From contig NHZP01000077.1 of assembly GCA_003313425.1 (NCBI GenBank), forward strand, positions 1-64,000: a stretch of 64,000 nt of DNA. Direction: 5' to 3'. Shown here in pieces: positions 30-59,721 of this stretch. The stretch is from Pseudopyrenochaeta lycopersici (taxonomy: Eukaryota > Ascomycota > Dothideomycetes > Pleosporales > Pseudopyrenochaetaceae). Under the pieces are notes generated by a model. It was not told the DNA's origin and did not search any database. It saw only the letters and a list, made by a program, of their open reading frames with translations. The translations under genes were made by a program, and so were the position numbers. The number at the start of each line of letters is the position of its first letter. Position 1 is the stretch's first letter.

Positions 30-45
30 TCATATATAGGCTGCG
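22..45. other. Left array-telomere junction
   Basis: Telomere CCCTAA runs directly into TCATATATAGG, the first bases of every complete cassette. The half-hairpin that precedes this sequence at internal junctions (CAACTTTCTAGTG then AAAGGAA) is absent. Only AA is shared between the telomere unit and the cassette end. Confidence 0.85.
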
Positions 46-235
46 CCACACTAGAAAAGTTGTCAGGGAGGCCCGTGCCCCCCCATGTGCCACATCTCCA
101 TGTGACTCTGCATGGCCCTCCAGCCACAGGGAAATTGGACTTAGCCAAAATTTCTTGAGAGATTTGATGTTCCATCCCAAGGGCGCCCACACCCTTAACA
201 ATGAAGCTCCGCACCACGATTTCTTCGTTTCCAGA
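30..235. repeat. Conserved 3-prime block of cassettes (C1 example)
   Basis: A block of about 200 bases recurs at the left of every cassette except C20. It holds a chain of short inverted repeats whose arms change together between cassettes: GGC(n)GCC; the second junction arm CACTAGAAAGTTG; GGGGC/GCCCC or GCGCG/CGCGC; AAATTGG/CCAATTT or AAAATG/CATTTT around GGACTTA; and AAGGG/CCCTT. Perfect palindromes such as GCTGAAAAATTTTTCAGC appear in C16 (near 23698) and C28 (near 42396). It lies downstream of the stop codon, so it may serve as 3-prime UTR or end-processing signal, or act as DNA structure. Confidence 0.7.
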
Positions 236-451
236 AGAGCCCTACCATTACTAAATCAGTCCTATTTTCTAATACGAAAAAAAAGTAAAATACAATAAAC
301 ATACCTATTCTCCTACACAAATAGGCTATACTATACCATAGAGCTTTATGATACTAACGTATTATAAAAAGCACAAAGTCAGCATGTACTCTGTCTCAAA
401 GACTATAGCATTACCAATGCCATTCCATAAGGCAAACAAACTACATCGTGG

Positions 452-1238
452 TTACGACCATCCACGACAGGAGAGCCAGTCCTCTCCTGACGGTTGTACT
501 ATTCCTACTGCATCGCTGAGTCCACCAAACCAACATGTCCTTGACGACCGCCATAAACGGTAGAATCGGTCTAGACGAACAAACCTTGGTGATGTATGGG
601 ATAAAAACCCACAAGGCTCACACCTACTTTTAACAGTACACGCGCAGTCGACCCGCGTACTATACCACCCTTCCTCTAAAACGTAGAACAATCTACGTAC
701 CGTAACAGAAGAAGCATCCGCAGCTTGCCCACTAGGCAATGCAAGAAGAGGGATAACGCGCTCCACCAGCACATCCAGTGCCTCTAACGAGAGCTGCGCA
801 AACGCAACATAGCTCCACACCACGCCCCTAACCAACGTATCCACCTTGAAGACCAGGAGAGACTGCCGGGTGGTACCCTGTGCACAGAGTTCTTTATAGT
901 CCTCCAGACAAAACCGGTGCTTCTGAGAAATACACTGTCGAGGGAGCTGCCCGCTCTCCTTGGTCAACCACGCGGATTGTCTCCCCGACACATCGAGATA
1001 GAGAGTAAGAGAAACGCAGTGTCCCACCAGCTCTGTGACGATATCAGTTGGGAGGGGATACCCAACCTGAGAAAAGAAGTACATACTTACGTTGAACGTG
1101 CCTCCGCACCCATTGAAGATTGTTGGCTGTCCCAGGAAAGGGCTCCCCCTTCTCGCCAGGCAAGAGCGTATCTACTGCTAACAAGCGACTATCATCCATA
1201 GCCTCTATGGGAGCACCCTGTCCCTGTAGCGACTCCAT
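452..1238 (-). CDS. C1: TKESG/CxC family protein (242 aa), function unknown
   Basis: This is the reference member of the family. Exon 1 is 1091-1238 and exon 2 is 452-1032. The 58-base intron (1033-1090) has GTAAGT, a CTGAT branch site and ACAG. Splicing in phase 1 joins HVQ to LVGHCVSLT. Exon 1 gives an acidic N-terminus with a PFPGT motif. Landmarks are TKESG at residues 73-77, AQLSLEALDVL near 128-138, C-x-C-x5-C-x2-C at 179-190 (possible zinc site), WFGGLSDAVG at 217-226 and a W-L-S-C end. There is no signal peptide or membrane segment. The start is the ATG in the family context GCGATGGAG. The last 50 bases before the stop region resemble C26, which suggests partial conversion. No known family is recognised. 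Confidence 0.82.
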
Positions 1239-1294
1239 CGCAAAGCAAAAAGAATGAAAAAAAGACACTCCGTACAAACAGCTCCCCTGTTATT

Positions 1295-1390
1295 ATTATA
1301 TACCTCTGTCTCTTGCACCCTGCAAAGACCAACTACTACATAGTAAGCAGCGGAGTGCCCATTCCATGTTGTCTACATTCATAGACCAAT
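1295..1390 (-). promoter_or_regulatory. C1 promoter
   Basis: TATA box at 1295-1302 and inverted CCAAT (ATTGG in the gene direction) at 1386-1390, with the conserved CTAGTCC-type element between them. AATCA/TGATT arms flank the CCAAT box and the leader has ACAG/CTGT arms. Confidence 0.7.
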
Positions 1391-1961
1391 CAAATGACTG
1401 ATTGAAAAAAAGAGTGGCAAAGAAGAGTCAGATGACCCGCACCGTCCGTGCTCTGCTCTGCTTACTAAGTGCATTGCCTCTAAACTAATTCTAGTTTAAC
1501 ACTCCGTTGCGATCTCCAATCGCAGGCAAAGCTTACGTGTAAAGTGGCAAGGGTAAGGAGCGCAAGGCTCCTGACCACTTGACAACTTTCTAGTGAAAGG
1601 AATCATATATAGGCGGTTCGCCACACTAGAAAGTTGAGTCGGGGCCTGTGCCCCCTCCATGCGCCACACTCCATGTGACCCAACGTGACTTCCAGCCACA
1701 ACAAAATCGGACTTACGCATTTTTTGAAAAATAATTTTCAATGTTCCATCCCAGGGCGTCCACACCCTTACCAAATTCAGCCTACGCCAACAGCAACGAT
1801 TGTTCCAAAAACACCACTCCATGCCTAAAAATACTGCGTCCAACAAAAACCTCAGGTATTTCAAAAAGTACTATAAGACAATACTATTAGCCATACACGG
1901 ACTACACCAATATCAATCCCAATACTACACAAACGTACCTGTGCATATCCACCTATCTACG

Positions 1962-2778
1962 CTACACGTATTGAACAAAATAAGGGTCTCCAAGATAACC
2001 AAAACCATCATCTAAGCATTTAAGCCAGTTCTGTCCTGATGGTTGTATTTCTCCTACCGCATCGCTAATCCCAGCGAACCAGTCAAGCTTTCCAAACGCC
2101 CATACACGGGAAAATCCATCTAAGCGAACAAACCTCGATGAAATCCGGTGTGCACACACACAAGGCTCACACTGTGTGTAGAAGGTACATGCGCAGTCGA
2201 CCCGCGTACTATAGTACCCGAAGCGCAGTCGATAGAACAACGCCTCCACATCTTCGATATCCAGCCTCTCCCCCGACGGCGTTGCGATAAGAGGTAAAAT
2301 GCGCTGCAAAAGCACATCAAAGGCCTCTACCGAAAGCTCCGCAAACACAACAGAACTCCGCACTTGATCCCTGGCCAGGGTATCCACCTTGAGCACAAGG
2401 ACCGACTGTGCTCTACCGCCTCGTTCACAGAACTCCTTGTAGTCTTCCAGACACTCTGTATGGTCCCAAGAAACGCATTCGCTAGGAAGGCATCCGCTCT
2501 CCTTGGTGAGCCACCAAGATTGTTTTCCCGACAGTTCCACATGAACGGTAAGAGAAACAGAGTCCTCCACAAACTCTGTCATCATGTTAGTTGGGGAGGG
2601 CCCAACCTGAGAAAAGAAGTAGATACCTACTAGGAATGTGCCTCCGCACCTCTTGAATGTTTGCCGCTGTCCCAGCGAAGGGGGAGCCCCTCTGACCCGG
2701 CAGAAGCGTGTCCAGTGACAGTAAATGACCGTCACCTGTAACCTCTACAGTACTGCCCTGTCCCAGGAGCGACCCCAT
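1962..2778 (-). CDS. C2: TKESG/CxC family protein (253 aa)
   Basis: Exons 2631-2778 and 1962-2575; intron 2576-2630 has GTAGGT, a GTTGGG/CCCAAC stem and a CTAAC branch site. The protein runs MGSLLGQG, then FVEDSVSLTVHVELSG, TKESG, VFAELSVEAFDVLL, the CACT-x4-CEPC cysteine motif and WFAGISDAVG. It has a longer tail ending in YLGDPYFVQYV. The 3-prime half and downstream spacer (about 1914-2340) are nearly identical to C6 (8203-8650), whereas the first exons differ. One of the two is therefore a chimera. Confidence 0.82.
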
Positions 2779-2861
2779 CGCATTGTAAAAGCAAATAATA
2801 AAAGAGAATGTTCATTCCCTACAAACAGTAACACTCCGTGAACGGGGAAGGGGCTCCCCTC

Positions 2862-2956
2862 TTATATATCGATGTCCATGCTATCTTCGCCAAGACCACC
2901 TAGTCCCTAGATAGCAGAGCGCTGCTCCCTCCATGTCTCTATGTACATAGACCAAT
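2862..2956 (-). promoter_or_regulatory. C2 promoter
   Basis: TATA at 2862-2869, inverted CCAAT at 2952-2956. TCAGA/TCTGA arms adjoin the CCAAT box; a GGGG/CCCC hairpin sits just upstream of the leader. Confidence 0.7.
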
Positions 2957-3555
2957 CAGACTAAAGATCTGAGAAAATGTGGGCAAGCAGTGATCAGATG
3001 ATCAGCACGCGCCCGTGCTCTGCGTTGCTTACTAAGTGCATGCCCCTAAACTAATTCTAGTTTACCGCTTCGCTACTCGTTCCACTCGCCGGCCCTGCTT
3101 AATTGTAAAGTGACAAGGGTAGGCAGCACGAGGCTGCCGACCACTTGACAACTTTCTAGTGAAAGGAATCATATATAGGCGGTTCGCCACACTAGAAAGT
3201 TGAGTCGGGGCCTGTGCCCCCTCCATGCGCCACACTCCATGTGACCTGGGATCGCCTCCAGCCACACAGGAATTGGACTTAGCCAATTTTTGCGAATTTC
3301 CATCCCAGCGCATACACCCTTAATGACCAAGCTCCGCACCACAACTGCTTCGATGTTTCGTCTACTTCTATACAAAACCTACTTGCCATAATTAGTACAC
3401 AGTACAATATACACAAATCGTATTTTAAAACACAACTAAATTAAATACGTACTTCCTACGTTTTTCTACCAAATCTATAGCCTGCAACTGTTCCTATATA
3501 AAGATATAGACAATAGTATACCACTTCGACTACAATATATCAACGCCATTCCATA

Positions 3556-4354
3556 CTACACTGCCCTGCTTTCGACATAACGCGCAAGGCAATCACTTAT
3601 CTCCCGACGGTTATAAGTCTCCTCAAGGTCATACTCAGCAGGCGCTTCTTGTCCAAACGGCCATACACTACGGAAATGGTAGAGCCGGTGAAACCGTGGG
3701 TTGCTGTGATGCCCATCCACACAAGGCTTACACCTCTTCCCTGGTGTGCACCCGCAATCCACGCTGGTGCTATACCATCCATCATCCAATGCGTTGAACA
3801 CTCGATGTACGACAACAAAAGCCTCCGCCACCCCCCCTCCCGGCAGTGTGAGAAGAGGTAGGATGCGCTGCACAACCACGTCCAGCGCCTCTAACGAGAG
3901 CTCCGCAAACATGACTAGGCTCTCGAGCACCCCATCCGGGTAGAGTGCATCCACCTTGAGGACAAGAAGCGCCTGCTGGGTACCCACCGAGGCACTAAGT
4001 TCCTTGTGATTGTTTAAACACTCCGTGTGTCTCTGAGAAACACACTGCGGACGAGGCTTCCCGCTCTCCTTAGTAATCGACCAAGATTGTCTCCCCGACA
4101 ATGGCACATGGACAGTTAGAGACACTTCACGCTCTACAAGCTCTGTGACGCTGTCAGTTGGGGAGCGCCCTAACTTCTACAGTAAAAAGATCAAGACACT
4201 TACCAGGCACGTGATCCCTCACAAGAGCCCGCTCCGCCTCTGTCCCTACAGACACTGCATAGGAACTCCCATTCTGTAAACCATCTACCATGGACAGGAG
4301 AGTGGTTATGCTAGCGGCCGCTGCCACACTATCTTCCGTAGTACGCGACTCCAT
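3556..4354 (-). CDS. C3: TKESG/CxC family protein (245 aa)
   Basis: Exons 4204-4354 and 3556-4142; intron 4143-4203 (61 bases, GTAAGT, CTGAC branch site, ACAG). Exon 1 is of the second family type, MES...SMVDGLQNGSS...VRDHVPG, shared with C10, C11, C26 and C27. Exon 2 has the TKESG motif, MFAELSLEALDVVV and the cysteine motif CGCTPGKRCKPC. The usual WF-x-G-x-SDAVG tail is replaced by a divergent end (residues about 215-245, with YDLEETYNRREISDC), so this member has lost or shifted the C-terminal motif. Confidence 0.78.
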
Positions 4355-4428
4355 CGCAACGCAGAAAAAACAAGATATTTTTTACAAAATAAACATTCAC
4401 ACTCCGTGAGCGGGGATATCCTCCCCTC

Positions 4429-4530
4429 TTATATACAGTTACGTCCAGCCTGCCTTGCGCACTGCCAAGATGGCCTAGTCCCTAGTTGGCAGGGGCAGCC
4501 CATTCCATGTAGTTATATCCATACACCAAT
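4429..4530 (-). promoter_or_regulatory. C3 promoter
   Basis: TATA at 4429-4435, inverted CCAAT at 4526-4530 with AATCAG/CTGATT arms next to it. Confidence 0.7.
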
Positions 4531-5066
4531 CAGAAGCCTGATTGAAAGAAAATGCGGCACAGCAGGGTCAGATGACCCGCACTGTCCGTGCTCTGCTTTG
4601 CTTACCGGGGTCTCTTGCCCTAAACTACAAGTAGTTTACCGCTTCGCTGTTCGCTCCACTCACGGCCAGAGCTTACAGTAAAGTGTCAGGGGTCAAGGAG
4701 CGCAAGGCTCCTGACCACTTGACAACTTTCTAGTGAAAGGAATCATATATAGGCAAAACGCCACACTAGAAAGTTGAGGGCAGGCCCGTGCACCCCCGAG
4801 CCACAGCCCCCAGCGTGACTCTGCATGGCCTCCAGCCACAGGGAAATCGGACTTAGCCAATTTTTTTGTGAAGAGTGATGTTCCATCCCAAGGGCACCCA
4901 CACCCTTACGAACCAAGCATTGTAGTAAAATCTAATGCATCATTTTTCCTATAAACAATGTTTGCAGGACAAGAAAAATAATAATTGTACTAAACTATAT
5001 TAAAAGAGTACGACTCACGCATAACCTACCATTACAACACTTCAATTACCAAACTCAATCAAACAA

Positions 5067-5921
5067 TCAAGAATGCGGACTACACTCCATGCACCCGCAA
5101 TCAGAACTACTCAATACTATCTCGGGGAACACAGTACCGCAGCTTAGCCAGTCTTCTCCGAACGGCTGTACCATGCCTACCGCATCGGTGATCCCAACAA
5201 ACCAACCAGAAATTCCATCTGGAGCAACCCCACTAAAGCCATCCCGCCACGTAAACCTCCACTGCTGAGAGGGGATCGCCCTACACTGTGGACAAATCAC
5301 AGCAAGTGTACACCCACACCAAAGAGTGCTAGAAAAGCACCCATTGTCTAACGACTGAAACAACGTTTCCACAACTGAAGGTTCCACAGCACCACCTCCC
5401 GGTAGTATGAGCAGAGGTACTATGCGCTGCAAGAGCACATCCAGTGCCTTTACAGAGAGCTCCGCGAATACAACTAGACTCCGCACCTGATCGCCTGCAA
5501 GGACATCCACCTTAAGGACCAACAGGGACTGCCTGACCCGATCATCCATGTAGATGTCGCCGCATCCTAACAAACAATCGCACTGCTTCCCGGAAATGCA
5601 TTCATCCGGGGGCTTCCCGCTCTCCTTGGTGCACCACCAACGTCGTCTGCCATTCGGCAAGACGTGGCATGTTAGCGACCTATCTTGTTCCACCAGCTCT
5701 ATGACGGTGTCAGTTGGGGAGATGCCCAACAAGCACTGTAAGGTCCACCTACCTTGCACGTGACTCCGCACCGATTGCATCTGATTCTCTGTTCCTGCAA
5801 ACGGGTACCCCTTACTACCCTCTTTGGACGTCACCGGTAACTGATCCCAGTTAAACAAAGACAGCGAATGGGACCGCTTCACACCGGAGATAGTCGTACC
5901 CTCTCCAAATTGCGATTCCAT
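5067..5921 (-). CDS. C4: TKESG/CxC family protein (266 aa)
   Basis: Exons 5753-5921 and 5067-5698; intron 5699-5752 is 54 bases, a multiple of three without a stop, so an unspliced mRNA would encode an 18-residue insertion. The intron carries GTTGGG/CCCAAC and a CTGAC branch site. Landmarks are YPFAGT in exon 1, WWCTKESGKPPDECIS, VFAELSVKALDVLLQRIVPLL, CGCTLAVICPQC and WFVGITDAVG. A CLLGCGD segment adds cysteines after TKESG. The start is the ATG in GCAATTTGGAG-like context at MESQFGEG. Confidence 0.82.
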   Translation of the reverse strand: MESQFGEGTTISGVKRSHSLSLFNWDQLPVTSKEGSKGYPFAGTENQMQSVRSHVQGRWTLQCLLGISPTDTVIELVEQDRSLTCHVLPNGRRRWWCTKESGKPPDECISGKQCDCLLGCGDIYMDDRVRQSLLVLKVDVLAGDQVRSLVVFAELSVKALDVLLQRIVPLLILPGGGAVEPSVVETLFQSLDNGCFSSTLWCGCTLAVICPQCRAIPSQQWRFTWRDGFSGVAPDGISGWFVGITDAVGMVQPFGEDWLSCGTVFPEIVLSSSDCGCMECSPHS

Positions 5922-5999
5922 CGTAAATGACAACAATAAGAAAACGTTCAATCCCTTAGGGGAGAGCAACACTCCGTAAACACAGATCCTCTGTTCTTG

Positions 6000-6093
6000 T
6001 TATATACCTTCACAACTTGGTAACTACCAAGAGCACCTAGTCCCTAGTGGGCGAAGAAACGCACACTCCCTACCTCTATATCCATAGACCAAT
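6000..6093 (-). promoter_or_regulatory. C4 promoter
   Basis: TATA at 6000-6007, inverted CCAAT at 6089-6093 with AATCAT/ATGATT arms; leader arms ACAGA/TCTGT. Confidence 0.7.
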
Positions 6094-6740
6094 CATATAG
6101 ATGATTGAATAAAATGTGGGTAACCCATGGTCAGATGACCGCACTGCCCGTGCGTTGTGTTACTTACAGGGGGCAGAGGCCCTAGCCTACAAGTAGTCTA
6201 ACACTTCGTTATTCGCTCCACTCACAGGCTCTGCTTACAGTAAAGCCGTCGTGGTCCCGAGCGCAAGGCTCTCGACCACTTGACAACTTTCTAGTGAAAG
6301 GAATCATATATAGGCTGCGCCACACTAGAAAAGTTGATTTCTGCCCCGTGCGCACAATCTGCGCCACACCCCCAGGTGACCCAACGTGACTTCCAGCCAC
6401 AGTAAAATTGGACTTACGCATTTTTCGAGAGGTTCGATGTTCCATCTGAAGGGCTCCCACCCTTAACAATGAAGCTGCGCACCACAAATTCCTTAGTGCT
6501 TAACAAGGCACTGCCATTACAATATCAGTACTATTTTTTTAATAGAAAAAAAAAAAAAAAAAAGTAAAACACTATACATACTCACAACATAACATAAATA
6601 ATAGTCATAGATAACATCAAAAACGTTCATAATACCGTAGTATTCTGCAAAGCACAAAGTCAGCATCTACTTCATCCTAACCATTGCTATTGCTACTACC
6701 TTATTATACTCCGTATCTTACAAAATCATCATTACACGTA

Positions 6741-7528
6741 CTACGCACAGGGACACGAAAGCCAGTTCCTTCCTGATGGTTGTACCTCTCCTACCGCATC
6801 GCTGAGTCCAACAAACCACATGGACTCTCCAAACGGCCACACACCTGAAAATCTACATTTTCGAACAAACCTTGGCGAATTATAACTTACCGACGCACAA
6901 GGCTCACATACCCTGAGCGGCATACATGCGCAGTCTACACACGTACTATAGTACCCGTCCCCTAACAGGGAGACCACTCGGTTAACAACTGAAGGTTCCA
7001 CAATCTGCCCCGACGGCAGGATGAGAAGGGATACTATGCGCTGCAAAAGCACATCCAGTGCCTCCATAGAGAGTTGCGCAAACAAAATAGTTTGTTCCAT
7101 CTCGTTCCAGTATACAGTTTCCACTTTAAGGACCAGGAGCGACTGCCGGGTATCCCCCAGGGCACTAAAGCGCTCATTGAACTTGGAAAGACACTCCAGG
7201 TGTTGCTCCTCTACACACTGCTTAGGAGGTTGCCCACTCTCCTTAGTAATCCACCAAGACTGTCTCCCCGACAAATCCACATGAAGTGCTAGAGAGACGC
7301 ATTGTTCCACGAGCTCTGCTACTCCGTCAGTGGGGGAGGCCCACTGAAGTTAGAAGTAAAAGAAACAAGTAGACACCTACCCGGCACCCGACTCCGCAGG
7401 TATTCAATGTTTGCAACTGTCCCAGGGAAGGGCTCCCCCCTTTGACCCGACACAAGCGTGTCCAGTGACACTACATGACTATGATCCATAGTAGAGGCTA
7501 CGGTATACTGCCCAGTGCGCGATTCCAT
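6741..7528 (-). CDS. C5: TKESG/CxC family protein (240 aa)
   Basis: Exons 7381-7528 and 6741-7315; intron 7316-7380 (65 bases, GTAGGT). The protein has WWITKESGQPPKQCVEEQH, LFAQLSMEALDVLLQRIV, CACMPLRVCEPC and WFVGLSDAVGEVQPSG. Most of exon 1 (7397-7505) is identical to C6 (8942-9050), although the second exons are clearly different. This is a second conversion tract within the family. Confidence 0.82.
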
Positions 7529-7582
7529 CGCAATGAAGTTTTAAAGAACACTCCATGCCAACAGCAGAGGAGCTGTAGTTAG

Positions 7583-7676
7583 TTATATACACCTCCGTCT
7601 CTGGCACTGCCAAGACACACTAGTCCCTAGCAGGCAATGTAATGCCCATTCCATCTGTCTACCGCCATAGACCAAT
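7583..7676 (-). promoter_or_regulatory. C5 promoter
   Basis: TATA at 7583-7589, inverted CCAAT at 7672-7676; TCAGA/TCTGA arms beside it; leader arms ACAGC/GCTGT. Confidence 0.7.
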
Positions 7677-8251
7677 CAGACTGACGTTCTGAAAAAGAGT
7701 GGGCACAACAGGGTCAGACGACCCGCACTGTCCGTGCTCTGCTCTGCTTACTAAGTGCAGCGCCCCTAGCCTACAAGTAGTCTACCGCTTCGCTACTCGT
7801 TCCACTCGCCGGCCCTGCTTACATGTAAAGTGTCCAGGATCAGAAGCGCAAGGCTCCTGACCACTTGACAACTTTCTAGTGAAAGGAATCATATATAGCA
7901 CAAGAAAGTTGTCGGAGAGGCCTGTGCGCACAATCTGCGCCACAGCAACCCATGTCTGCGCTCTCCCGAGCCACACCCCCAGGTGACTCAGCATGGCCTC
8001 CAGCCACAACAAAATCGGACTTAGCCAATTTTTTATTTTTTTTTGAGAGGTTTGATGTTCCATCCCAAGGGCGCCCACACCCTTACTAATGAAGCTCCAC
8101 ACAATAAACAACTACAATGGAATAACGTTCCTTACAAAATAAACAGTTCAACCAAACCTGTACACAATGTAAACATATTGACTACACCAATAAAAATCCC
8201 AATACTACACAATACTACACAAACATACCTGTATATATCCACCTATCTACG

Positions 8252-9076
8252 CTACACGTATTGAACAAAATAAGGGTCTCCAAGATAACCAAAACCATCA
8301 TCTAAGCATTTCAGCCAGTTCTTTCCTGATGGCTGTATTTCTCCTACCGCATCGCTGAGTCCAGTAAACCAGTCTCGCTTTCCAGGCGGGCATACACAAG
8401 AAAAATAATTTTGCCAAATAAACCTTGGTAACTCACGGCTTACCACCAATGCGCAGGGCTCACACCTTATGTACAAGGTACACACACAGTCGACCCGCGT
8501 ACTATAGTGCCCGAAGCGCAGTCGATAGAACAACGCCTCCACAACTTCGATATCCGGCCTCTGCCCCGACGGCGTTGCGATAAGAGGTAGAATGCGCCAT
8601 ATAAGCACATCAAAGGCCTCTACCGAAAGCTCCGCAAACACAACAGAACTCCGCACTTGATCCCTAACCAACGTATCCACCTTGAGCACAAGGACCGACT
8701 GTGCTCTACCGCCTCGTTCACAGAACTCCTTGTAGTCTTCCAGACACTCTGTATGGTCCCAAGAAACGCATTCGCTAGGAGGCTGCCCGCTCTCCTTAGT
8801 ATACCACCAACGTTGTCTGCCATCCGGCTTTAGATGGCAGGTGAGAGAAGTCAATCGCTCCACCAGCCCTGTAACTCCGTAAGTTGGGGAGAACCCAACC
8901 AGACGAGGGAGAAAACAATACTTACTAGGAATGTGCCTCCGCAGGTATTCAATGTTTGCAACTGTCCCAGGGAAGGGCTCCCCCCTTTGACCCGACACAA
9001 GCGTGTCCAGTGACACTACATGACTATGATCCATAGTAGAGGCTACGGTACTGCACTGTCCCAGGAGCGACCCCAT
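8252..9076 (-). CDS. C6: TKESG/CxC family protein (255 aa), mosaic
   Basis: Exons 8926-9076 and 8252-8868; intron 8869-8925 is 57 bases and stays open in frame. It has GTAAGT, GTTGGG/CCCAAC and ACAG. The gene looks like a chimera: exon 1 matches C5, the middle and 3-prime end match C2, and the centre (LTSLTCHLKPDGRQRWWYTKESG) resembles the C4 type. Cysteine motif is CVCTLYIRCEPC and the tail is WFTGLSDAVG. Confidence 0.82.
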   Translation of the reverse strand: MGSLLGQCSTVASTMDHSHVVSLDTLVSGQRGEPFPGTVANIEYLRRHIPSKYCFLPRLVGFSPTYGVTGLVERLTSLTCHLKPDGRQRWWYTKESGQPPSECVSWDHTECLEDYKEFCERGGRAQSVLVLKVDTLVRDQVRSSVVFAELSVEAFDVLIWRILPLIATPSGQRPDIEVVEALFYRLRFGHYSTRVDCVCTLYIRCEPCALVVSRELPRFIWQNYFSCVCPPGKRDWFTGLSDAVGEIQPSGKNWLKCLDDGFGYLGDPYFVQYV

Positions 9077-9159
9077 CGCACTGTAAAATAAGGGAATAAA
9101 AGAGAATGTTCAGTCCCCACAAACATTCACACTCCATGAGCGGAGAGGGAGCTCCCCTC

Positions 9160-9253
9160 TTATACATCTCTGTCTCTTGCATCCTGCCAAGACACACTAG
9201 TCCCTAGATAGCAGAGCGCTGCTCCCTCCATGTCTCTATGTACATAGACCAAT
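9160..9253 (-). promoter_or_regulatory. C6 promoter
   Basis: TATA at 9160-9167, inverted CCAAT at 9249-9253 with TCAGAT/AATCTGA arms. The sequence from the CCAAT box through these arms also occurs inside the coding exon 1 of C12. Confidence 0.7.
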
Positions 9254-9828
9254 CAGATAAGAAATCTGAAAAGAGTGGCAAAGAAGAGTCAGATGACCCG
9301 CACTGTCCGTGCTCTGCTTTGCTTACCGGGGTCTCTTGCCCTAAACTACAAGTAGTTTACCGCTTCGCTGTTCGCTCCACTCACGGCCAGAGCTTACAGT
9401 AAAGTGTCAGGGGTCAAGGAGCGCAAGGCTCCTGACCACTTGACAACTTTCTAGTGAAAGGAATCATATATACGCAAAACGCCACACTAGAAAGTTGTCG
9501 GAGGGGCCCGTGCCCCAACTCGACCCATGTCTGCGCTCTCTCGAGCCACACCCCCATGTGACCCAGCCTGTCTTCCAGCCACAGGGAAAATGAACTTACG
9601 CAATTTTTTTTTTGAGAGTTGGTATTCCATCCCAGGGAGGGCTCACACCATTAACAAATTCAGCCTACGCTACCAACCCATTTACATCCCACACTGTGTA
9701 CTGTAAACACATCAGAATACAATAACATATAAATAATACAAATCTGTATACTTCCAACGAGAAGTAGAAAACACGATGCTCCCTACATCAGCATGCGCCC
9801 AACCGCAAACACCTACCAGTGTCACATA

Positions 9829-49836: not shown

Positions 49837-49960
49837 CGCAATCAACTACCCGTTGAAATTAAGGAAAGGATATGAAAAATACTACAGAGAAACTGTAGAT
49901 TTAGATACGCTCACTACCCGTGAGAAGAGATGGAGGGCACTCGCCTCTCTTATACATCTC

Positions 49961-50052: not shown

Positions 50053-50799
50053 CAGACTAAAGATCTGAAAAAGAGAGTGGCAACCCAGCGTCATCTGACT
50101 CACACGGTCCGTGCTGCGTGTTGCTTACAGGGGGCAGCGCCTCTAGCCTACAAGTAGTCTAACACTTCGTTACTCGCTCCACTCGCAGGCTCTGCTTAAT
50201 TGTAAAGTGGCAAGGGTAACCAGCGCAAGGCTGGTGACCACTTGACAACTTTCTAGTGAAAGGAATCATATATAGCACTCGAAAGTTGAGAGAATGGGCC
50301 CGTGCCCATCACAACCCGTCTGTGCGCAGAACGCGCCACAGCCCCCATCTGACTCAGCCTGTCTTCCAGCCACACACAATTGGACTTCGCCATTTTTTTG
50401 AGAAGAATGGATGTTCGATATTCCATCCTAAGGGTGGGAGCCCTTACTAACCAAGCTCTGCCATACAAATTCTTTATTCTTCGCAATAACCCTACCTTTA
50501 CTACAGTAGTACTTATTTCCAGGAAAATTAAACGTACAACTATAATTATGTATAGATATGTACATCCTATAAAGCAACCTAGTAACATGGTTAAAGCATA
50601 CTTAATACTAACTACATACCTAGCAGAAGGAATGTTATTACTTACCTTACTCTCGATAGAACGTTACATACGTACCTTAAACAAATGTACGTGTTCCTAC
50701 AATAGATACTAACACATAGCATAAAACACATACCATGCCTCACCCAGATCGTAACGCAGTCCGCGACCACCATAGCAAATAACAAGATCTACAAAAGAT

Positions 50800-51398
50800 C
50801 TAATGTGTAGTACTATAATCATTCTCTACCTCTTCGAGATCGTGCACACGAGAATTACGCCCTTGCGGACTAACAGCGTTTCTTTGCCTTGCCAATACAG
50901 CATCTAGGGATAACTCTCCGAGTGGTAAACGCCGACTTCCGTCCTGCACGAGAGAATCCAACTGGTCTCTCCAAGAAACCGTATACTGCGCATACAGACT
51001 ACTGCTGCCTACCAACTCTGCAACTCGATCCCTAAAGCCGTTAACACGAGCATGCAACCATCTTCTCTCATGATCCTCCAGATATGCACCACATATCGAT
51101 AAATGCGACAACAAGAGACGAATCCGTCCTCTGAAAAAAACTGTTGTATAAGCACACGCTCCACTGGCAGGACACTACGTGATACATACCGCCACACACC
51201 TAGTCGTGTTGTGTCGAGCACAGACGTGGACGAGTTGCTACCACTAACTGGATATACAGCCTGTATAGTTTGCAGCAAGAAACACTCCGTTGTTGTTAAT
51301 CTTCGATGTGCTTCGCCAAACCGTCGCCACGCTCTCGCCCCCGAACTTGCCCGGGGTAAACGTAGGCATTCCACGCTGGTGCTGTGCCGTCCAGCCAT
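50800..51398 (-). CDS. C33: copy of the C24 orphan gene (179 aa)
   Basis: Exons 51190-51398 and 50800-51130; intron 51131-51189. Cassette 50266-51836 equals C24 in length (1571). Its right neighbour is a copy of C30, whereas C24 is followed by C25. Confidence 0.65.
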
Positions 51399-51509
51399 CC
51401 GCCCCTCTGCGTACTACAAATGCTGTTTTCAAAGTAAAACAACCTTCAACAACTGTCTCCGAAACACGCACTCCCTGCGTCTCAGTACTCTGTGAGCGGG
51501 CTCCCCTCC

Positions 51510-51602
51510 TATATAGATCTCTGTCTTGCGCAACGCCAAGAGCACCTAGTCCCTAGGGAGCAGCGGAGTGCCCATTCCATGAATCTATGTCCATAGACCA
51601 AT
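51510..51602 (-). promoter_or_regulatory. C33 promoter (copy of C24)
   Basis: TATA at 51510-51516, inverted CCAAT at 51598-51602. Confidence 0.6.
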
Positions 51603-52255
51603 CAGAACTTCAGTCTGACCGTGTTGTGGGGGCAGGGGTGCCTCCCACGGGTAACCCTGCAGTCATCTGACTCACACGGTCCGTGCTGCGTGTTACTTAA
51701 GCGTGCAGCGCCTCTAAACTAATTCTAGTTTAACACTCCGTTGTTCCCTCCACTCACAGGCTCTGCTTACAGGTAAAGTGTCGAGGGTCTCCAGCGCAAG
51801 GCTGGTGACCACTTGACAACTTTCTAGTGAAAGGAATCATATATAGGCTGCGCCACACTAGAAAAGTTGATTTCTGCCCCGTGCGCACAATCTGCGCCAC
51901 ACCCCCAGGTGACCCAACATGGCCCTCCAGCCACAACAAAATGGACTTAGCCAATTTTCGACGATTGATTTTTCAAAACATCGTCCATCCAACAAAAACA
52001 TTCCATAGTTACCACGACCATAACATACAGACAACAGCTGAAAAAAACGAGCTTTCCGATTACTTGTAAAATACGCAGACTGCTCTGCATCACAAACACT
52101 TAAAATAAGTATCATTAATACTACACTCTGATATTACATAGGAAGACATTCTACATACGTACAAAATTAACACAATAGTAAATTGCATGCCGCCCATACT
52201 CATGTCGACACTGTCATAGTGTAAACCTACACAACATAGTGAACACCCTAAACTC

Positions 52256-53001
52256 CTATGGTACTCCATACACAGACCCTGTAGATGTAGTAAAACAACA
52301 ACTAAGCCACGGGAACTTAGTAATATCTCTCACCTTCGGGATATCGAGCGCATCTGTAACCCCAGTAAACCACCTCCGCTCTGGACACGGATATACACCT
52401 GTAAATCCATTCCGCCACACCCACATCGCTCCGCTTCCTACGTTACTTCGGCAAGCCTGACAAACAGCGGCTAATGGACTACAGTCACACTCTGTAGACA
52501 CCCCGTATCCACCTCTTGACAAGAACGACGACATAAGCTGCGCCGCGTCCGCTGACGAAGCCACAACATCCCATTGGGGCAATACTCGCCCAAGTAGATT
52601 ACACACGCTATACGTAGAAAGCTCCGCAAGACAAACCTCCGGTTGTTGGCTGTCAATGACAAAAACAACAGCAAGATACGCTGTTGGATAAGGCTGTCGA
52701 GCTTCATCCCATACACAACTCGAACATTCTGTCTCCCGACAACGCTGGGGCAGCTGCCCGCTCTCCTTGTTGAGCCACCACTGTACAGACTCTGCACGAG
52801 CTACGCAGGTCACAGACACAGACCGTACCACAAAGTCTGTGACTCCATTAGCGACTGGCCAGCCGGCGCACTACGATACAAACCGTTGAGATACACCTCT
52901 AACAACTTCAGCGTATCCACTGTGGAAAGCGGCCCTACCGGCACACCTGAAGTAATAGATGCCACGCTCCCGCTGCCACAACACTCCGTAGAGCGATCCA
53001 T
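52256..53001 (-). CDS. C34: copy of the C30 family gene (232 aa)
   Basis: Exons 52884-53001 and 52256-52836; intron 52837-52883. This cassette (51837-53405, 1569 bases as in C30) sits exactly between the copies of C24 and C25. Its reduced promoter was carried with it (TATA-like box at 53146-53153). Confidence 0.75.
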
Positions 53002-53952
53002 CGCACCTAAGCTATGTACAACATGTACTGTCGTATGACGCTTATCTAAGCTTCATCATATTAACTCCATACCCTTCGCTCCCGAAGAAAAAAAGGACAT
53101 ACCTTAACGCACTCCTTGCGTGATTGCACAGTGGCGCAAACCACTTTTATATTGAAAAGCGTCTATCCAGCAATTGGACTACGCCAAGAGAAGATCATTC
53201 CATAACAAGCGATGAACCGCCCACTCCATGTGTTCCCGCCTCCACGTGACAAAAAGGCTAGCGCTTACAGGGGGCAGCGCCTCTAGGCTTTAAAAAGCCT
53301 AACCCTCCGGTGCTATCTCCAATAGCAGGCCCTGCTTAACGGTAAAGTGGCAAGGGTAACCAGCACGAGGCTGGTGACCACTTGACAACTTTCTAGTGAA
53401 AGGAATCATATATAGGCTGCGCCTCACTAGAAAAGTTGAGTCCGGGTCTGTGCGCGAAATCCGCGCCACACCCATGTGACTCTGCATGGCCCTCCAGCCA
53501 CAGGGAAATCGGACTTGGCCAATTTTCGAGAGGTTTAATCTTCGGTATTCCATCCCAAGGGCGCCCACACCCTTACCGACTGAGCTCCGCACCACAACTC
53601 TCCGATTTTCCTCACAACCATACAAAAGTATAGCAATTACAAAAATCAAATTAACGTAACAGTCGTATCCTAGATACTACTTCTATGTTAAAACAACACC
53701 TTTATCAACTCAATGCCTACCTATCGAAAAATAACGAAAACTTACCATATTCATCCAAATAGCTTCTCCGAATACACCGTACAAAATTTCCATATACCAC
53801 AAAACTACAACTCCTTATTAGCAGACAGTAACTGAAACGCTTTGCCTAGCCCAACAAACCTAACCTTCTATTTCCCTTACAGTCACTGCCTCCACGCAGA
53901 CAAATAAAGAGAGTAACGGATATGTTACTTCCAATAACCATAATCCTCCGGT

Positions 53953-54528
53953 TTACTCAATAGCTCCACTCATTCTCACACGGAACAACGCAGCTCCAGA
54001 CTGCGAATAGGGAACACGCTCCCCCATGTCATTAAACCACGACTCCGCGCCACAGTCGCTCTTCCATAAAAGCCGCCCTCCACTCGAAGGCAACACCCGC
54101 GTTGCCCCTGAACGATCATACAACTGCACATAGCTGACTACCCACTGCTCCTCTACACGAGCACCTTGACACGACTCGCGCGTACACAAGGAAGTGCAAG
54201 AATGGCACACCACAACCTCGCGCTCCCACGCTCTAGAAAAGGACTCCCGCCGCACAACCTCTCTAAAAAAAGGCGGCTGGTGCACTAACGAAGATGGCTT
54301 CGTGCGAAGACCACGACGCTCCCGCTTCCTACGTTTCGAGAGCTTCACGGAATCTCCCGCAACAGGTCCCCTAACAGCCCCTTCTGAGTTGCCAGTACCA
54401 TCCGTACCTTCCCATTCCATGGCATCTGAGTCCATCGCGTCCGAACCCGGACTACTACTACAAGCGCGGCTCGTGACAAAAGTCTGCAGTACTGCAGGAC
54501 AAAAGATCAGCCTAAGCTTCCCAAACAT
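53953..54528 (-). CDS. C35: copy of the C25 orphan gene (191 aa)
   Basis: Single exon, same protein as C25. Cassette 53406-54992 is 1587 bases like C25. Preceded by C34 instead of a C24 copy. Confidence 0.65.
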   Translation of the reverse strand: MFGKLRLIFCPAVLQTFVTSRACSSSPGSDAMDSDAMEWEGTDGTGNSEGAVRGPVAGDSVKLSKRRKRERRGLRTKPSSLVHQPPFFREVVRRESFSRAWEREVVVCHSCTSLCTRESCQGARVEEQWVVSYVQLYDRSGATRVLPSSGGRLLWKSDCGAESWFNDMGERVPYSQSGAALFRVRMSGAIE

Positions 54529-54686
54529 CAATGCGCTCCACGCGAGAAAAACCTACAGAACCTAAGCCCCAGCCTTCGGCTTGGTGGAACTTTAAAAAAC
54601 CCTACAGAAAACGGGCTCCACCCTAAATCAAAAAGAAGTATTCTATAAAAACACACTCCGTGCCAACAGCAGAGACGCTGTTGTGG

Positions 54687-54782
54687 TTATATATCGATGT
54701 CCACCCTGTCTTTGCCAAGACACACTAGTCCCTAGTAGGCAGAGGCATGCCCCTTCCATGCTGTCTACGTTCATAGACCAAT
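54687..54782 (-). promoter_or_regulatory. C35 promoter (copy of C25)
   Basis: TATA at 54687-54694, inverted CCAAT at 54778-54782. Confidence 0.65.
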
Positions 54783-55395
54783 CAGGACTCTGATTGAATA
54801 AATGTGGGTAAACTGAGGTCAAGTGACCCGCACAGTCCGTGCTTCGTGTTACTTACCAGGGCTTTTGCCCCTAGTCTCCAAGGAGCCTAACCCTTCGGTA
54901 CTCCCTCCAGTCGCGGGCAAAGCTTAGAGTAAAGCCGTCGTGGTCCCGAGCGCAAGGCTCTCGACCACTTGACAACTTTCTAGTGAAAGGAATCATATAT
55001 AGGCAAAACGCCACACTAGAAAGTTGAGGATGGGCCCGTGCCCTCTTCGCGCCACACCTCCATGTGACCCAACATGGCCTCCAGCCACACGGAAATTGGA
55101 CTTAGCCAAATTTTTTTTTTCTGAAAAATGATGTTCCATCGTAAGCGTAGCCACCCTTCATGACTGACCTCCGCCCTACAAATTCTTTGTTATTCTAATG
55201 GCCCTACCATTACAAAATCAGTACCTACCGAAATAAAGACAAAACTGAGTGTATCAACATACTGTTATAATAACGTACTAAACTAAACTAAGCTGATACG
55301 CAAAATGTAACGCATCGTAATCGTAGACAACTACTACTACCTTAGTATACACCATATACATAGAGACAAAGGAGAGCAACTTACTAGTAATATTC

Positions 55396-56188
55396 TCACC
55401 AAGAACGACTGCAACCCAACCAGTTCCTGCCAGACGGTAGTACTGCTCCCACAGCGTCACTGATCCCAGCGAACCAGTCAAACTTTCCAGGCGGCCACTC
55501 ACCGGAAAATGTATTTAACCAGAGAAATCTCGGTGAACAATAATGCGCATACGCACAAGGCTCACACTGTGTGGAGAAGGTACACGCGCAGTCGACCCGC
55601 GTACTATAGTACCCAAAGCACAGTCGATCAAATAACATACCGACTACAATACCCTCCGCAGCCTGCCCATCCGGCAGTGTGAGCAGAGGAAGAATGCGCT
55701 CCACCAACACATCCAGTGCCTTTACAGAAAGCACCGCGAAGGCAACAGAGCTTTCTAGCTCCCCGATGTTCAACGTATCCACCTTGAGGACAAGAAGCGC
55801 CTTCAGCGTGCCACCCCGTGCACAAAGTTCGTTGTGATGCTTTAAACACTCCGTGTGTTTCTGAGAAACGCACTGACGAGGCAACTTCCCACTCTCCTTG
55901 GTCACCCACCAGGATTGTCCCCCCGACAATGGCACATGCACAGTGATAGAGACACAGAGCTGGTGGAGCACTGTGATGAGGTTAGTTGGGAAGGGCCCAA
56001 CTTCTTCCGTGTCTTCTGTTTCTTTGACACTTACCAGGCACGTGATCCCTCACAGTCTGCTGTTCCATGGGTGTCCCTACGGACAATGCGGAAGAACTCC
56101 CTTCTTCTAACGCTTCCACAAGCGATAACAACTTTGTTGCACCACTATCTGGTGATGGCACTGCCTGCTCTCCAGGTTGCGAATCCAT
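55396..56188 (-). CDS. C36: copy of the C11 family gene (242 aa)
   Basis: Exons 56035-56188 and 55396-55970; intron 55971-56034. Cassette 54993-56557 (1565 bases as in C11); neighbours C35 and C37 differ from those of C11. Confidence 0.78.
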
Positions 56189-56254
56189 CGCATGTGTAGT
56201 AAAAAAACTACATATTGTAAAACATATCCATGAACACAGATCCTCTGTTGTGAC

Positions 56255-56345
56255 TATATACCTCTATCTATGGCACCGCCAAGAGTAACTAGTCCCTAGC
56301 AGGCAATAATGTGCCCATTCCATCTGTCTACGTTCATAGACCAAT
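56255..56345 (-). promoter_or_regulatory. C36 promoter (copy of C11)
   Basis: TATA at 56255-56261, inverted CCAAT at 56341-56345. Confidence 0.65.
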
Positions 56346-56849
56346 CAAAGCATTGATTGAAAGAAGAGAGTGGCAAAGAAGAGTCATCTGACCCGCACTG
56401 TCCGTGCTCTGCGTTGCTTACTAAGTGCATGGCCCTAGCCTACAAGTAGTCTACCCCTTCGGTACTCGCTCCACTCGCGGGCGATGCTTATGTGTAAAGT
56501 GGCAAGGGTAGGCAGCGCGAGGCTGCCGACCACTTGACAACTTTCTAGTGAAAGGAATCATATATAGCACAAGAAAGTTGAGTTGTGGCCTGTGCGCGCA
56601 CAATCTGCGCCACAGCAACCCATGTGCGCTCTCCCGAGCCACAGCCAACGTGACTGTCAGCCACAGGGAAAATGGACTTACGCATTTTTTTTTGAAGATT
56701 TGATGTTCCATCCCAAGGGCGCCCACACCCTTCATGACGAAGCACCACGCAATAAACAACTACAATGGAATAACGTTCGTTACCAAATGAACAGTTCCAC
56801 CAAACCTGTACGCAATGTAAACGTAATACAAAAAATGGTTACATTGTAC

Positions 56850-57698
56850 CTAATTGAACTCCCCCATATCATAATCAAAATCATCTGAATCAAATATATC
56901 AGCGTCCCCACCAAGCCGTTCCACCTCTTTTTCCTGCTTAACAGGAGACCTCGTAACAGGCACAGCCACCCGAGAAGCCAATGCACTGGTAGATCCACCA
57001 GCGGGACATCGATCACTGCCTGCGTCATCCAAACGCACAACTTCATCCATAGAAAATCTCTTCCTAGCACACTCGCCGCTCCGCATAACACGCTGTGCCC
57101 AGGCGAGATAGGCATGATCCTTAAAACAGTTCCCTGTAGCCTCGCCAAAAAAAATCAACGCTCGCTTTATGCCATCCGTCACAGACTCCTTCGCTGCGTT
57201 CTCAATGGCTACGAGTTTACTAGCAGCTGTGGCCTTCCCATAGCCCCAATCCTCATGGCGCGCCCCTCCTAAGTGCTCCGCCAGTGTGACTGCTATCTTC
57301 GATCGCCAATAGACCGTCGTAGTCGTAGTCGTAGTAGACTGCCTAGTCTTAGACACCGGCCCCGGTTCCTCTCCAAGCCGTTCATCTTCGAGAATTTCGT
57401 TTGCCCATCCGTCAAAACCAAACACCCTGTTAGCAAGGCGGATAGCATCCGTTGCTGAAAGATACGACACCGAGCCTCCCCCACCAGGTCGGCTAGACAT
57501 CAGCGATGGCTCCGGAACACGTGATAACAAATCCTCTACGACTTCCTTGCTCCGCAATAGAGAGACAACACCTCCAGTGGGATCGTCCCGACAAAGCTTC
57601 GCCCTCTTCCCATTGCTGGTTATCCCTACAGCAGTACCAGACCCGCCATCCTGGCCCGCGACGCCTGCCGCTCTACTATCGCTGATGCGGTGATCCAT
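56850..57698 (-). CDS. C37: second Rad52-type gene, copy of C19 (282 aa)
   Basis: Same protein as C19, including the poly-Thr insert and acidic tail, in a cassette of the same 1575 bases (56558-58132). In C19 the gene is followed by the damaged C20; here it is followed by C38. Two intact copies suggest the gene is used, or that the segment is recent. Confidence 0.87.
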   Translation of the reverse strand: MDHRISDSRAAGVAGQDGGSGTAVGITSNGKRAKLCRDDPTGGVVSLLRSKEVVEDLLSRVPEPSLMSSRPGGGGSVSYLSATDAIRLANRVFGFDGWANEILEDERLGEEPGPVSKTRQSTTTTTTTVYWRSKIAVTLAEHLGGARHEDWGYGKATAASKLVAIENAAKESVTDGIKRALIFFGEATGNCFKDHAYLAWAQRVMRSGECARKRFSMDEVVRLDDAGSDRCPAGGSTSALASRVAVPVTRSPVKQEKEVERLGGDADIFDSDDFDYDMGEFN

Positions 57699-57826
57699 TC
57701 TTAAACAAGAATCAAATGGGACAATCTCCGTACGCACTTAATCAGTGCAAGCGATACAATCGCAGCGTAGAAGAAAAGAAACTACACAAAGTAGAACACT
57801 TCGTGAAAACAGCTCCACTGTTAGTC

Positions 57827-57920
57827 TTATATAGGTATCTACCTCAAGCTACGCCAAGAAAACCTAGTCCCTAGGGAGCACGAGTGTGCCCCGTCCCTGC
57901 GTCTACGTTCATAGACCAAT
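57827..57920 (-). promoter_or_regulatory. C37 promoter (copy of C19)
   Basis: TATA at 57827-57833, inverted CCAAT at 57916-57920. Confidence 0.65.
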
Positions 57921-58741
57921 CAGAAACCCGATTGATAAAAAGAGTGGCAAAGAAGAGTCATCTGACCCGCGACGTCCGTGCTCTGCTTTGCTTACAGGGG
58001 CTTATGCCTCTAGTCTTATTCAAGACTAACCCTTCGGTACTCGTTCCACTCGTTGGCAACGCATACGTGTAAAGTGTCAGGGGTAACCAGCGCAAGGCTG
58101 GTGACCACTTGACAACTTTCTAGTGAAAGGAATCATATATAGCACTCGAAAGTTGTCGGAGGGGGCCCGTGCCCCAACATGACCCATGTCTGCGCTCCCC
58201 GCGCCACAGCTAACGTGACCCTGCGTGACTGTCAGCCACAGGGAAAATGGACTTAGCCATTTTTTTTGAAGGTTCGATGTTCCATCTGAAGGGCTCCCAC
58301 ACCCTTACCGACTGACCTCCGGTAATCCAAATTCTTCATTGTCCCCACAACGACGTAAACCCTATATAACATAATTAATATATATATAAATATACTACTT
58401 TTGTTTTACAAAATAAAACAAGTATGAAATAACATACCTTCCTATTATTTTCCAATAATCTCCATACTACAACTCCCCTTGTATATCTACACTCCGCATC
58501 CTCGACGTACCTACGTAAAATCAGATAACATATCTACCCATCTATGATTACCAAGACACTCCATAGTACGCGTACACACTACTAACCTAATTTACCAATA
58601 ATGCACTTACCTTACAACTAAACAAGACCAAAGGTAAGAGAACATTACGATAATTGAGTTTCGCAAACTCTACAACAATTGAATGACAGAGACAGCTCCC
58701 TAGCCTCTACGTTACACCATCAACATCTCTGGAAAACAACG

Positions 58742-59323
58742 CTACGCGCCACCGCCAACTCTTACATGGCGAGGACGTACAGATATTTTTTTGTTTTTTC
58801 CTGCACGCAACCTGCGCAGGCCCTGAACAGCACCAGCAGTGCATACAAAGCTTCCTCCAAGTCGATCTCCACGACCATCACAGAAGCGCTGGCTACTCCG
58901 TACAAGACTTTCATCAACAACGTCATGAGAGGTTCCCTCTACGTCCGCCAGCGTTGGAAACCGCCCTAAATCACATACAGCCTCCAGCAGAGGACACGTC
59001 CGCGACAAAAAACACCCATCGCTCTCTTGGGTGCTAGGTGTATCCACATCGATTACATCAAAGCATAGAAGTTCCACATCTCCGAGCCAATCTAGGACGA
59101 TATCCATGTTTATAGGGCTACCCGCCACGATCCACACTGTGAAAAGACATGAAGTGGGATACACTTCCTGCAAACAACCAAAAAGCAGAGTACCATCTGC
59201 ACAGGACGTCGCCAACTCCGCCTGCAACTCCATCGTCAATCGCTGCACCCAGGATGACTTCATGATGCTGCTACCACAGACCAGCTGCACTTTAAAGCAG
59301 CGACACCTTGCTAATGATTCCAT
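58742..59323 (-). CDS. C38: orphan protein (193 aa), innermost cassette
   Basis: Single exon; two consecutive ATGs (59326, 59323), the second giving the MES start typical of the array. N-terminal half has alternating strands with cysteines (CRCFKVQLVCGSS, LLFGCLQEVYPTSCLFTVWIVAG); the middle is acidic (DWLGDVELLCFDVIDVDTP); the C-terminus is basic (LRRLRAGKNKK). No TKESG or SDAVG motif. No family recognised. A cryptic C-terminal intron cannot be excluded. Confidence 0.6.
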   Translation of the reverse strand: MESLARCRCFKVQLVCGSSIMKSSWVQRLTMELQAELATSCADGTLLFGCLQEVYPTSCLFTVWIVAGSPINMDIVLDWLGDVELLCFDVIDVDTPSTQESDGCFLSRTCPLLEAVCDLGRFPTLADVEGTSHDVVDESLVRSSQRFCDGRGDRLGGSFVCTAGAVQGLRRLRAGKNKKISVRPRHVRVGGGA

Positions 59324-59397
59324 CATCACCTACTAAAAGAGAAGAATAAAAAAATGTTCATAGAGACTGAACATTCACACTCCGTGCAGAAATGCTG

Positions 59398-59493
59398 TTT
59401 ATATGTTAATGTCTATGCTGTCTTTGCCAAGACACACTAGTCCCTAGTTGGCACGAGTGTGCCCCTTCCATGAATCTATGTCCATAGACCAAT
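59398..59493 (-). promoter_or_regulatory. C38 promoter
   Basis: TATA-like TTTATATG at about 59398-59405, inverted CCAAT at 59489-59493 with AATCAA/TTGATT arms. Confidence 0.6.
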
Positions 59494-59682
59494 CAAATGA
59501 TTGATTGAAATAAAATGTGGCAACCCAGCGTCACCTGACTCACACGGTCCGTGCTGCGTGTTGCTTACAGGGGGCAGCGCCTCTAAACTAATTCTAGTTT
59601 AACCCTTCGGTACTCCCTCCAGTCGTAGGCTCTGCTTACAGGTAAAGTGGCAAGGGTAACCAGCACGAGGCTGGTGACCACT

Positions 59683-59721
59683 TGACAACTTTCTAGTGAA
59701 AGGAACCCTAACCCTAACCCC
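59683..59721. other. Right array-telomere junction and interstitial telomere stub
   Basis: The last cassette ends CAACTTTCTAGTGAAAGGAA and passes directly into CCCTAACCCTAACCCC, about two and a half telomere units in the orientation of a left chromosome end, then unique sequence. TCATATATA and the second hairpin arm are absent. With the left junction, this places the whole array inside a telomere tract. Confidence 0.88.

Follow-up and report, generated by a model that had tools for sequence, protein, structure and literature searches.

Chromosome ends of Pseudopyrenochaeta lycopersici carry arrays of single-gene units of fixed length, possibly the resident form of a multipartite mobile element

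Pseudopyrenochaeta lycopersici (formerly Pyrenochaeta) is a tomato root pathogen for which a PacBio assembly of isolate ER1518 has been published (PMC6034849). We analyzed positions 1 to 64,000 of contig NHZP01000077.1 (GenBank assembly GCA_003313425.1); this whole stretch of 64,000 nucleotides is referred to here as the window. Positions 30..59705 are occupied by 38 units, U01 to U38, all arranged head to tail and most with one main gene. A first-pass annotation of this DNA, made from the sequence alone, had described 38 cassettes of near-constant length, and this was confirmed: 37 of the 38 units measure 1561-1592 bp, and U20 is 1319 bp. Together with related arrays elsewhere in the assembly, the units point to a constraint on their size and to their behavior as independent molecules, and the arrays may well be a multipartite mobile element in a form that resides at telomeres.

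The contig begins with distal telomere repeats, (CCCTAA)n (1..29, + strand), joined to U01 as CCCTAA/TCATATATA. On the + strand, each unit runs from TCATA to CTAGTGAAAGGAA, and the main gene lies on the - strand. The genes, and hence the gene-sense strand of the array, thus point outward toward the telomere, with gene 5' ends toward the centromere. The last unit, U38, reaches 59705, after which the sequence reads CCCTAACCCTAACC; the array base is an internal telomere tract, (CCCTAA)2 (59706..59719, + strand).

The 38 units represent 30 types, seven of which recur as identical pairs or triplets. Family A, which encodes a protein of ~240 amino acids (aa) with invariant CxC and CxxC cysteines, has a KESG-type motif in 20 of the 38 units. 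Its members occupy U01 (30..1602, 1573 bp; with a predicted 58-nt intron), U02 (1603..3168, 1566 bp), U03 (3169..4742, 1574 bp; a member at 3559-4176 without the conserved C-terminal WFxGxSDAVG stretch), U04 (4743..6303, 1561 bp; an uninterrupted 284-aa open reading frame (ORF), 5067-5921), U05 (6304..7888, 1585 bp), U06 (7889..9463, 1575 bp; 274-aa ORF, 8252-9076), the identical neighbors U07 (9464..11040, 1577 bp) and U08 (11041..12617, 1577 bp), U09 (12618..14199, 1582 bp), U10 (14200..15788, 1589 bp), U11 (15789..17353, 1565 bp) and its copy U36 (54993..56557), U13 (18943..20517, 1575 bp; 289-aa ORF), U18 (26827..28408, 1582 bp), U26 (39224..40788, 1565 bp), U27 (40789..42357, 1569 bp), and U29 (43943..45527, 1585 bp). 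Divergent members were found in U16 (23658..25249, 1592 bp) and in U30 (45528..47096, 1569 bp) with its copy U34 (51837..53405). U23 (34474..36065, 1592 bp) is of the same type as unit C5L_02 and joins family A by clustering, while the gene shared by U12 (17354..18942, 1589 bp), U21 (31303..32891), and U32 (48677..50265), three identical units, is distantly family A-like by eye.

The other units are more diverse. The first-pass annotation had named a 282-residue Rad52 protein, and U19 (28409..29983, 1575 bp; ORF 28701-29549) and its copy U37 (56558..58132) indeed encode a 282-aa protein with a Rad52 annealing domain (Pfam E 7e-28; 'RAD52 homolog' chains in PDB, 6e-20). Among the matches listed, this Rad52 occurs in 13 copies, each 100% identical at the protein level; host Rad52 pieces on contig C12 are 45 and 48% identical. 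The same annotation had listed a spliced orphan of 130 residues, which is probably the gene of U15 (22092..23657, 1566 bp): its predicted spliced product has that length, and it gave a sub-threshold match to RPA_C, the RPA32 C-terminal domain (22.4 bits for the open piece and 21.1 bits for the spliced form; cut-off 22.6). The C-terminal domain of RPA32 is a partner of Rad52. No Pfam family was found for U14 (20518..22091, 1574 bp; 220-aa ORF, 20881-21543), U31 (47097..48676, 1580 bp), or U38 (58133..59705, 1573 bp; 194-aa ORF), and none above the cut-off for U22 (32892..34473, 1582 bp; 197-aa ORF) or for U25 (37637..39223, 1587 bp; 191-aa ORF with a basic stretch, KRRKRERRG) and its copy U35 (53406..54992). 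U17 (25250..26826, 1577 bp) and the identical U24 (36066..37636, 1571 bp) and U33 (50266..51836) also yielded no family, and the ORFs of U28 (42358..43942, 1585 bp) contain hydrophobic, membrane-like segments by eye. Lastly, U20 (29984..31302) is a left-end-deleted derivative, shortened between TCATA and an internal CATA (a CATA microhomology), that is still part of the array. It is the sole size outlier, and the same type occurs at full length (1582 bp) elsewhere, in unit C23L_07 and also on contig C61.

Proximal to the array, short degenerate 19-bp repeats containing GTTAGG (60094-60218) separate the telomere tract from what appears, by eye in translation, to be a relic of a telomere-linked RecQ helicase (60500-64000). 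This relic has a high index of repeat-induced point mutation (RIP), and Pfam returned nothing for two of its short open pieces. A RIP-like dinucleotide bias was strong in array flanks, with TpA/ApT ratios of 2.0-3.0 in all but one of five stretches (the exception, contig C5, at 1.34), and absent from the window array (TpA/ApT 1.11, CpA index 1.05), which suggests that the RIP damage predates the array or that the array was spared.

To place the window in its genome, the assembly (62.7 Mb, 188 contigs) was searched for the exact sequence at the joint between units. This joint core, ACAACTTTCTAGTGAAAGGAA, was counted 836 times, 499 in forward and 337 in reverse orientation, and never in a reversed control. 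Among the matches listed, which cover the first contigs, all core sites lie at contig ends, on the + strand at left ends and on the - strand at right ends. Likewise, arrays lie at contig ends wherever they were read or listed, and whole-array stretches also occur inside contigs C61 and C65. Contig C61 (301 kb, 1-301352) is array where sampled (1-30 kb and 295-301 kb). Rad52 units occur at three positions in the intervening part, and the contig has no unit-telomere joint of the kind described below. We read 169 units from 15 stretches, including the window. At 95% identity, these fall into 79 types, and the Chao1 estimate is about 99. A 558-bp 'unit' was rejected and left out of these counts, as it arose from a false joint within a gene: a near-copy of the joint core lies inside a unit (L034, reverse complement 415-436), probably in the intron of the gene. 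We also noted gag-pol frames of a long terminal repeat retrotransposon adjoining the array base of contig C5 (L027:3842-7540).

Across the wider sample, length is again nearly fixed. All but one of the 169 units lie within 1536-1609 bp (mean 1578.2, standard deviation (sd) 10.1 without U20), and three further full units from L038, outside the 169, measure 1582, 1575, and 1576 bp. The first-pass annotation had also proposed that short genes are offset by longer spacers. We examined this with the 76 types then known, by splitting units at a CCAAT motif upstream of the gene, present in 59 of the 76, into a 5' end, a gene part, and a 3' part. In these 59 types, the gene part (sd 112) and the 3' part (sd 111) vary in almost perfect opposition (r = -0.99), leaving a total sd of only 8.9; when the two parts were permuted among types, the total sd averaged 157 and never fell below 113 (2000 permutations). 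Gene ends were taken from the longest open frame and some are approximate, an error limited by a second test, restricted to types whose ORF reaches 190 aa or more (n = 52), where the total sd was 9.0 against 86 after permutation (minimum 58). The proposed offset is thus strongly supported, as is a size constraint on the units. Fixed size combined with variable content suggests a limit imposed on a molecule.

Most types have one main ORF, and a few (e.g. C54L_06 and C102_01) have no clear gene; TATA-like boxes were noted by eye. Family A accounts for 42 of the 76 types, and its median dN/dS (the ratio of nonsynonymous to synonymous divergence) is 0.39 over the 185 of 817 pairs with dS below 1.2, so the family is under purifying selection and its proteins matter. 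Several members have predicted introns of 53-72 nt, for which alternative models exist; their retention in the gene sense argues against copying through spliced mRNA. Among 53 ORF pieces from units outside family A, a Pfam scan (two later types fall outside it) returned only the marginal RPA_C match, a weak F-box-like match in one type outside the window (19.7 bits; cut-off 24.3), and three weaker matches. No integrase and no RepHel protein were recognized in the unit ORFs scanned.

Next, we considered how copies of a unit are distributed. Copies of the same type are identical across the whole unit in 139 of 174 pairs, and in 120 of 149 pairs whose members lie on different contigs. Their neighbors are mostly unrelated: of the 146 copy pairs in which the next unit is known, 140 differ in its type and six agree. 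Same-type neighbors account for 4 of 154 adjacencies, and the longest run common to two arrays is three units. Repeated adjacencies number 6 of 154, against 1.7 in shuffled orders (sd 1.3), of which a fraction of 0.008 reach that number or more. With a read N50 of 12.6 kb in the published assembly (PMC6034849), or about eight units, adjacencies lie inside the read length, and the long-range order may hold errors.

These arrays could be an ordinary subtelomeric gene family, whose tandem units spread among chromosome ends by unequal crossing-over and break-induced replication and never exist as free molecules, the constant length being a by-product of homogenization. The telomeric location and head-to-tail order would suit such a history, as would the short common runs and the slight excess of repeated adjacencies. 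However, collinear blocks and variable spacing, which a tandem family would be expected to show, were not found. Homogenization cannot account for 79 differing types of one fixed length, and both break-induced replication and unequal exchange should produce shared blocks, which fits poorly with a near-random order in which next units nearly always differ though most copies are identical. A precise unit-telomere joint, described below, is likewise at odds with this explanation, and we consider it unlikely. Identical copies with unrelated neighbors suggest instead that single units are taken from a pool.

Upon a closer inspection of the joints, we found that the 836 cores are followed by TCATA at 797 sites, and by A or G at none. 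A slightly looser core followed by CCC marks 41 unit-telomere joints, and 24 distal joints have the form AACCCTAATCATAT. Pairing the joint coordinates by hand gave 19 interior tracts between units and five intact tips, and left 22 unit-telomere joints unpaired. The interior tracts, ten of which were read, are short: one repeat in seven cases, two in two, three in five, four in four, and five in one. Nine of the 22 unpaired joints were read and all nine are array bases sitting on telomere repeats; at least one of the others, at C65:246638, has further units beyond it and must therefore be interior. At the bases read (the window, both ends of C23, C18, C50, C54, C4, C5, and C10), CCC follows GGAA directly, with one extra C in C4. 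At the tips of C5 and C54, truncated units are capped by telomere repeats, as expected at chromosome ends. In the joints read, the register is fixed and on the outward strand reads TTAGGG/TTCCTTTC...unit...TATATGA/TTAGGG, with TT shared between the telomere repeat and both unit ends. Collectively, the single orientation, the fixed register, and the interstitial telomere tracts suggest that units are added at the telomeric end.

Such joints recall telomeric retroelements. MoTeRs of Pyricularia/Magnaporthe and FoTeRs of Fusarium insert in TTAGGG repeats and leave interstitial tracts, MoTeRs also form head-to-tail arrays, and FoTeRs often lie beside telomere-linked helicase regions (PMC7367193; PMC12857005). 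The units could accordingly be non-autonomous elements of this kind: an enzyme acting in trans would copy an antisense unit transcript, ending in GGAA, into DNA at the telomeric 3' end by reverse transcription. The joints fit this scheme, as TT/AA microhomology at both unit ends suits priming, and the healed truncations at tips resemble those described for MoTeRs and FoTeRs in the same sources. Other features do not fit. Genes in the units face outward, opposite to MoTeRs, whose 5' end is nearest the chromosome end (PMC7367193), and the telomere repeat is absent at 797 of 836 joints. MoTeR1 and the FoTeRs, though not MoTeR2, encode a reverse transcriptase, whereas no RVT match was obtained among the 53 ORF pieces outside family A and 10 window ORFs. 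Moreover, MoTeRs and FoTeRs, as described in the sources consulted, comprise one or two kinds of variable length, and truncation is common in FoTeRs and MoTeR relics, unlike the units, with ~100 gene kinds of an exact length that retroelements leave unexplained and 168 of 169 full-sized. Hence, we regard RNA-templated addition as quite unlikely.

The unit ends are also structured. The joint at 1428..1647 contains hairpins upstream of the joint, a local hairpin (CTTTC-TAGT-GAAAG), and a predicted stem across the joint, formed by CAACTTTCTAGTG and CACTAGAAAGTTG, that places the boundary between GGAA and TCAT in its loop. This one joint (1430-1640) was folded, and it folds far better than shuffled sequences on the two strands (z -4.76 and -4.72). 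The hairpins covary: six of 16 predicted pairs show changes on both sides, in up to 22 of 52 sequences (52 aligned of 84 distinct joints). The hairpin alleles combine freely, with 60 H5-H3 combinations against 62.8 expected. When the 65 mispaired H5/H3 cells are read on the + strand, A-C accounts for 13 and G-T for none, the remaining 52 being of other kinds; counted by distinct sequences, A-C outnumbers G-T by five to zero. An A-C on the + strand corresponds to a G-T on the gene-sense strand, which weakly favors the gene-sense strand as the folded one.

A hairpin near a unit end is also a feature of Helitrons, which begin with TC, end with a hairpin and CTRR, and insert between A and T. The units might be rolling-circle transposons that lack autonomy and depend for their movement on host Helitrons acting in trans. 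The units start with TC and have a hairpin beside their other end, and the host genome has Helitron-like replication initiators. Helitron_like_N gave eight genome matches: two lie in genes with open frames of >1200 aa (C28:146898 and C46:105562, the latter in L035), and five of the other six contain stop codons. By the same rules, however, the other unit end should read CTRR, not GGAA, and the target should be A/T, not a CCCTAA repeat. No sequence like a unit end was found in the 3.65-kb Helitron locus L035, whose ends may lie beyond it, and a size limit is not expected of Helitrons. Only the match on C10 shares a contig with unit-telomere joints, 39 kb away. We therefore think Helitron-type mobilization very unlikely.

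Several other systems offer partial parallels. In Kluyveromyces lactis, arrays at chromosome ends arise through roll-and-spread, the copying of circles (PMC7367193; PMC3486848), but rolling yields one repeated unit, unlike the mixed order seen here. The closest architecture to that of the units is, in our analysis, that of Botrytis cinerea ssDNA virus 1 (BcssDV1), a virus with a single-stranded DNA genome. It is described as having four segments of 1669-1707 nt (GC 46-49%), each with one main ORF, stem-loop common regions, a putative intron in one segment, a recognizable replication initiator protein (Rep), a putative capsid protein, and genes in both senses (PMC10731770); Fusarium graminearum gemytripvirus 1 (FgGMTV1) has three segments. 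Like these multipartite, Genomoviridae-like mycoviruses, the units are near-equal single-gene segments with a stem-loop common region, the likeness in the common region being partly circular because units are defined by the joint core. They differ in having about 100 types instead of three or four segments and genes that all point one way, and telomeric arrays are not described for the viruses in the parts of these sources that we consulted.

Foreign or mobile DNA is known at telomeres in other settings, such as telomere-integrated herpesviruses (ciHHV-6) and rotifer terminons. These share telomeric carriage with the units, but are large genomes or composites bearing a reverse transcriptase, not gene-sized pieces of fixed size. 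Integron gene cassettes form arrays of single genes with structured, single-stranded recombination sites; they vary in length and their genes lack promoters, unlike the units, with their fixed length, frequent upstream CCAAT, and lack of a recognized integrase.

Taken together, units that are identical across contigs, that stand in near-random order, that have precise boundaries, and that are separated in places by telomere tracts appear to behave as independent molecules. The first-pass annotation had pointed out that constant size is expected where a unit is packaged, circularized, or replicated under a size limit; the size constraint was strongly supported, the evidence added here favors independent units, and it is the free or packaged molecule that we still only infer. 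We give an even chance to the arrays being such an element in its telomere-resident state, multipartite and mobile, with ~100 gene-sized segments of ~1.58 kb whose copies would be drawn singly from a replicating pool and attached in one direction at the telomeric end. More tentatively, this element may be a DNA virus-like replicon: each of ~100 single-gene, ~1.58-kb segments would be replicated and size-checked as single-stranded DNA, would carry a set of structured, recombinable end hairpins, and would be stored on chromosome tips as a genome library; we see this as possible, though doubtful as a whole. A single-stranded stage, a circle, and packaging are all inferred here.

In the simplest scheme for the mobile element, the gene-sense strand would probably be made as a single-stranded molecule of limited size, perhaps circular and perhaps packaged. 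Its 5' end (TTCCTTTC) would be joined to the telomeric G-strand, sharing TT with TTAGGG, after which telomerase could add repeats to its 3' end (TATATGA) or a further unit could be attached there. Rad52, possibly together with the RPA32-like protein, would assist by annealing single strands or shielding them. The initiator might be encoded among the roughly 20 unseen types or in family A, or be supplied in trans.

Several points count against the pool and its viral form. The data are an assembly, and neither free molecules nor particles nor reads were observed; about 20 types are still unseen (79 against a Chao1 of about 99). More than half of the types belong to one fast-diverging family, which is unusual for a virus. 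No capsid protein was recognized among the 53 ORF pieces outside family A, IMG/VR contained no exact match to the joint, and PF00799 and PF02407, which target Reps of the HUH/SF3 kind, had no genome match, a weak negative in that positive controls were likewise silent. Furthermore, the excess of repeated adjacencies over chance indicates that block copying happens, but rarely.

We found no description of such arrays or of such a mechanism in the literature searched, which comprised few subscription papers and no bioRxiv preprints, with searches partly aimed elsewhere; the main text of the genome paper contains no word beginning with 'telomer' (PMC6034849). Even without a free stage, a telomeric library of fixed-length genes in near-random order needs a mechanism. 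If the arrays do draw on a pool, telomeres would have a new route of extension, by whole genes. If the more tentative virus-like replicon is correct, it would have far more segments than any multipartite virus known to us, a genome an order of magnitude more divided than those of the three- and four-segment mycoviruses and kept at chromosome ends. How far a genome can be segmented, and how telomeric gene families arise, would then become directly testable questions.

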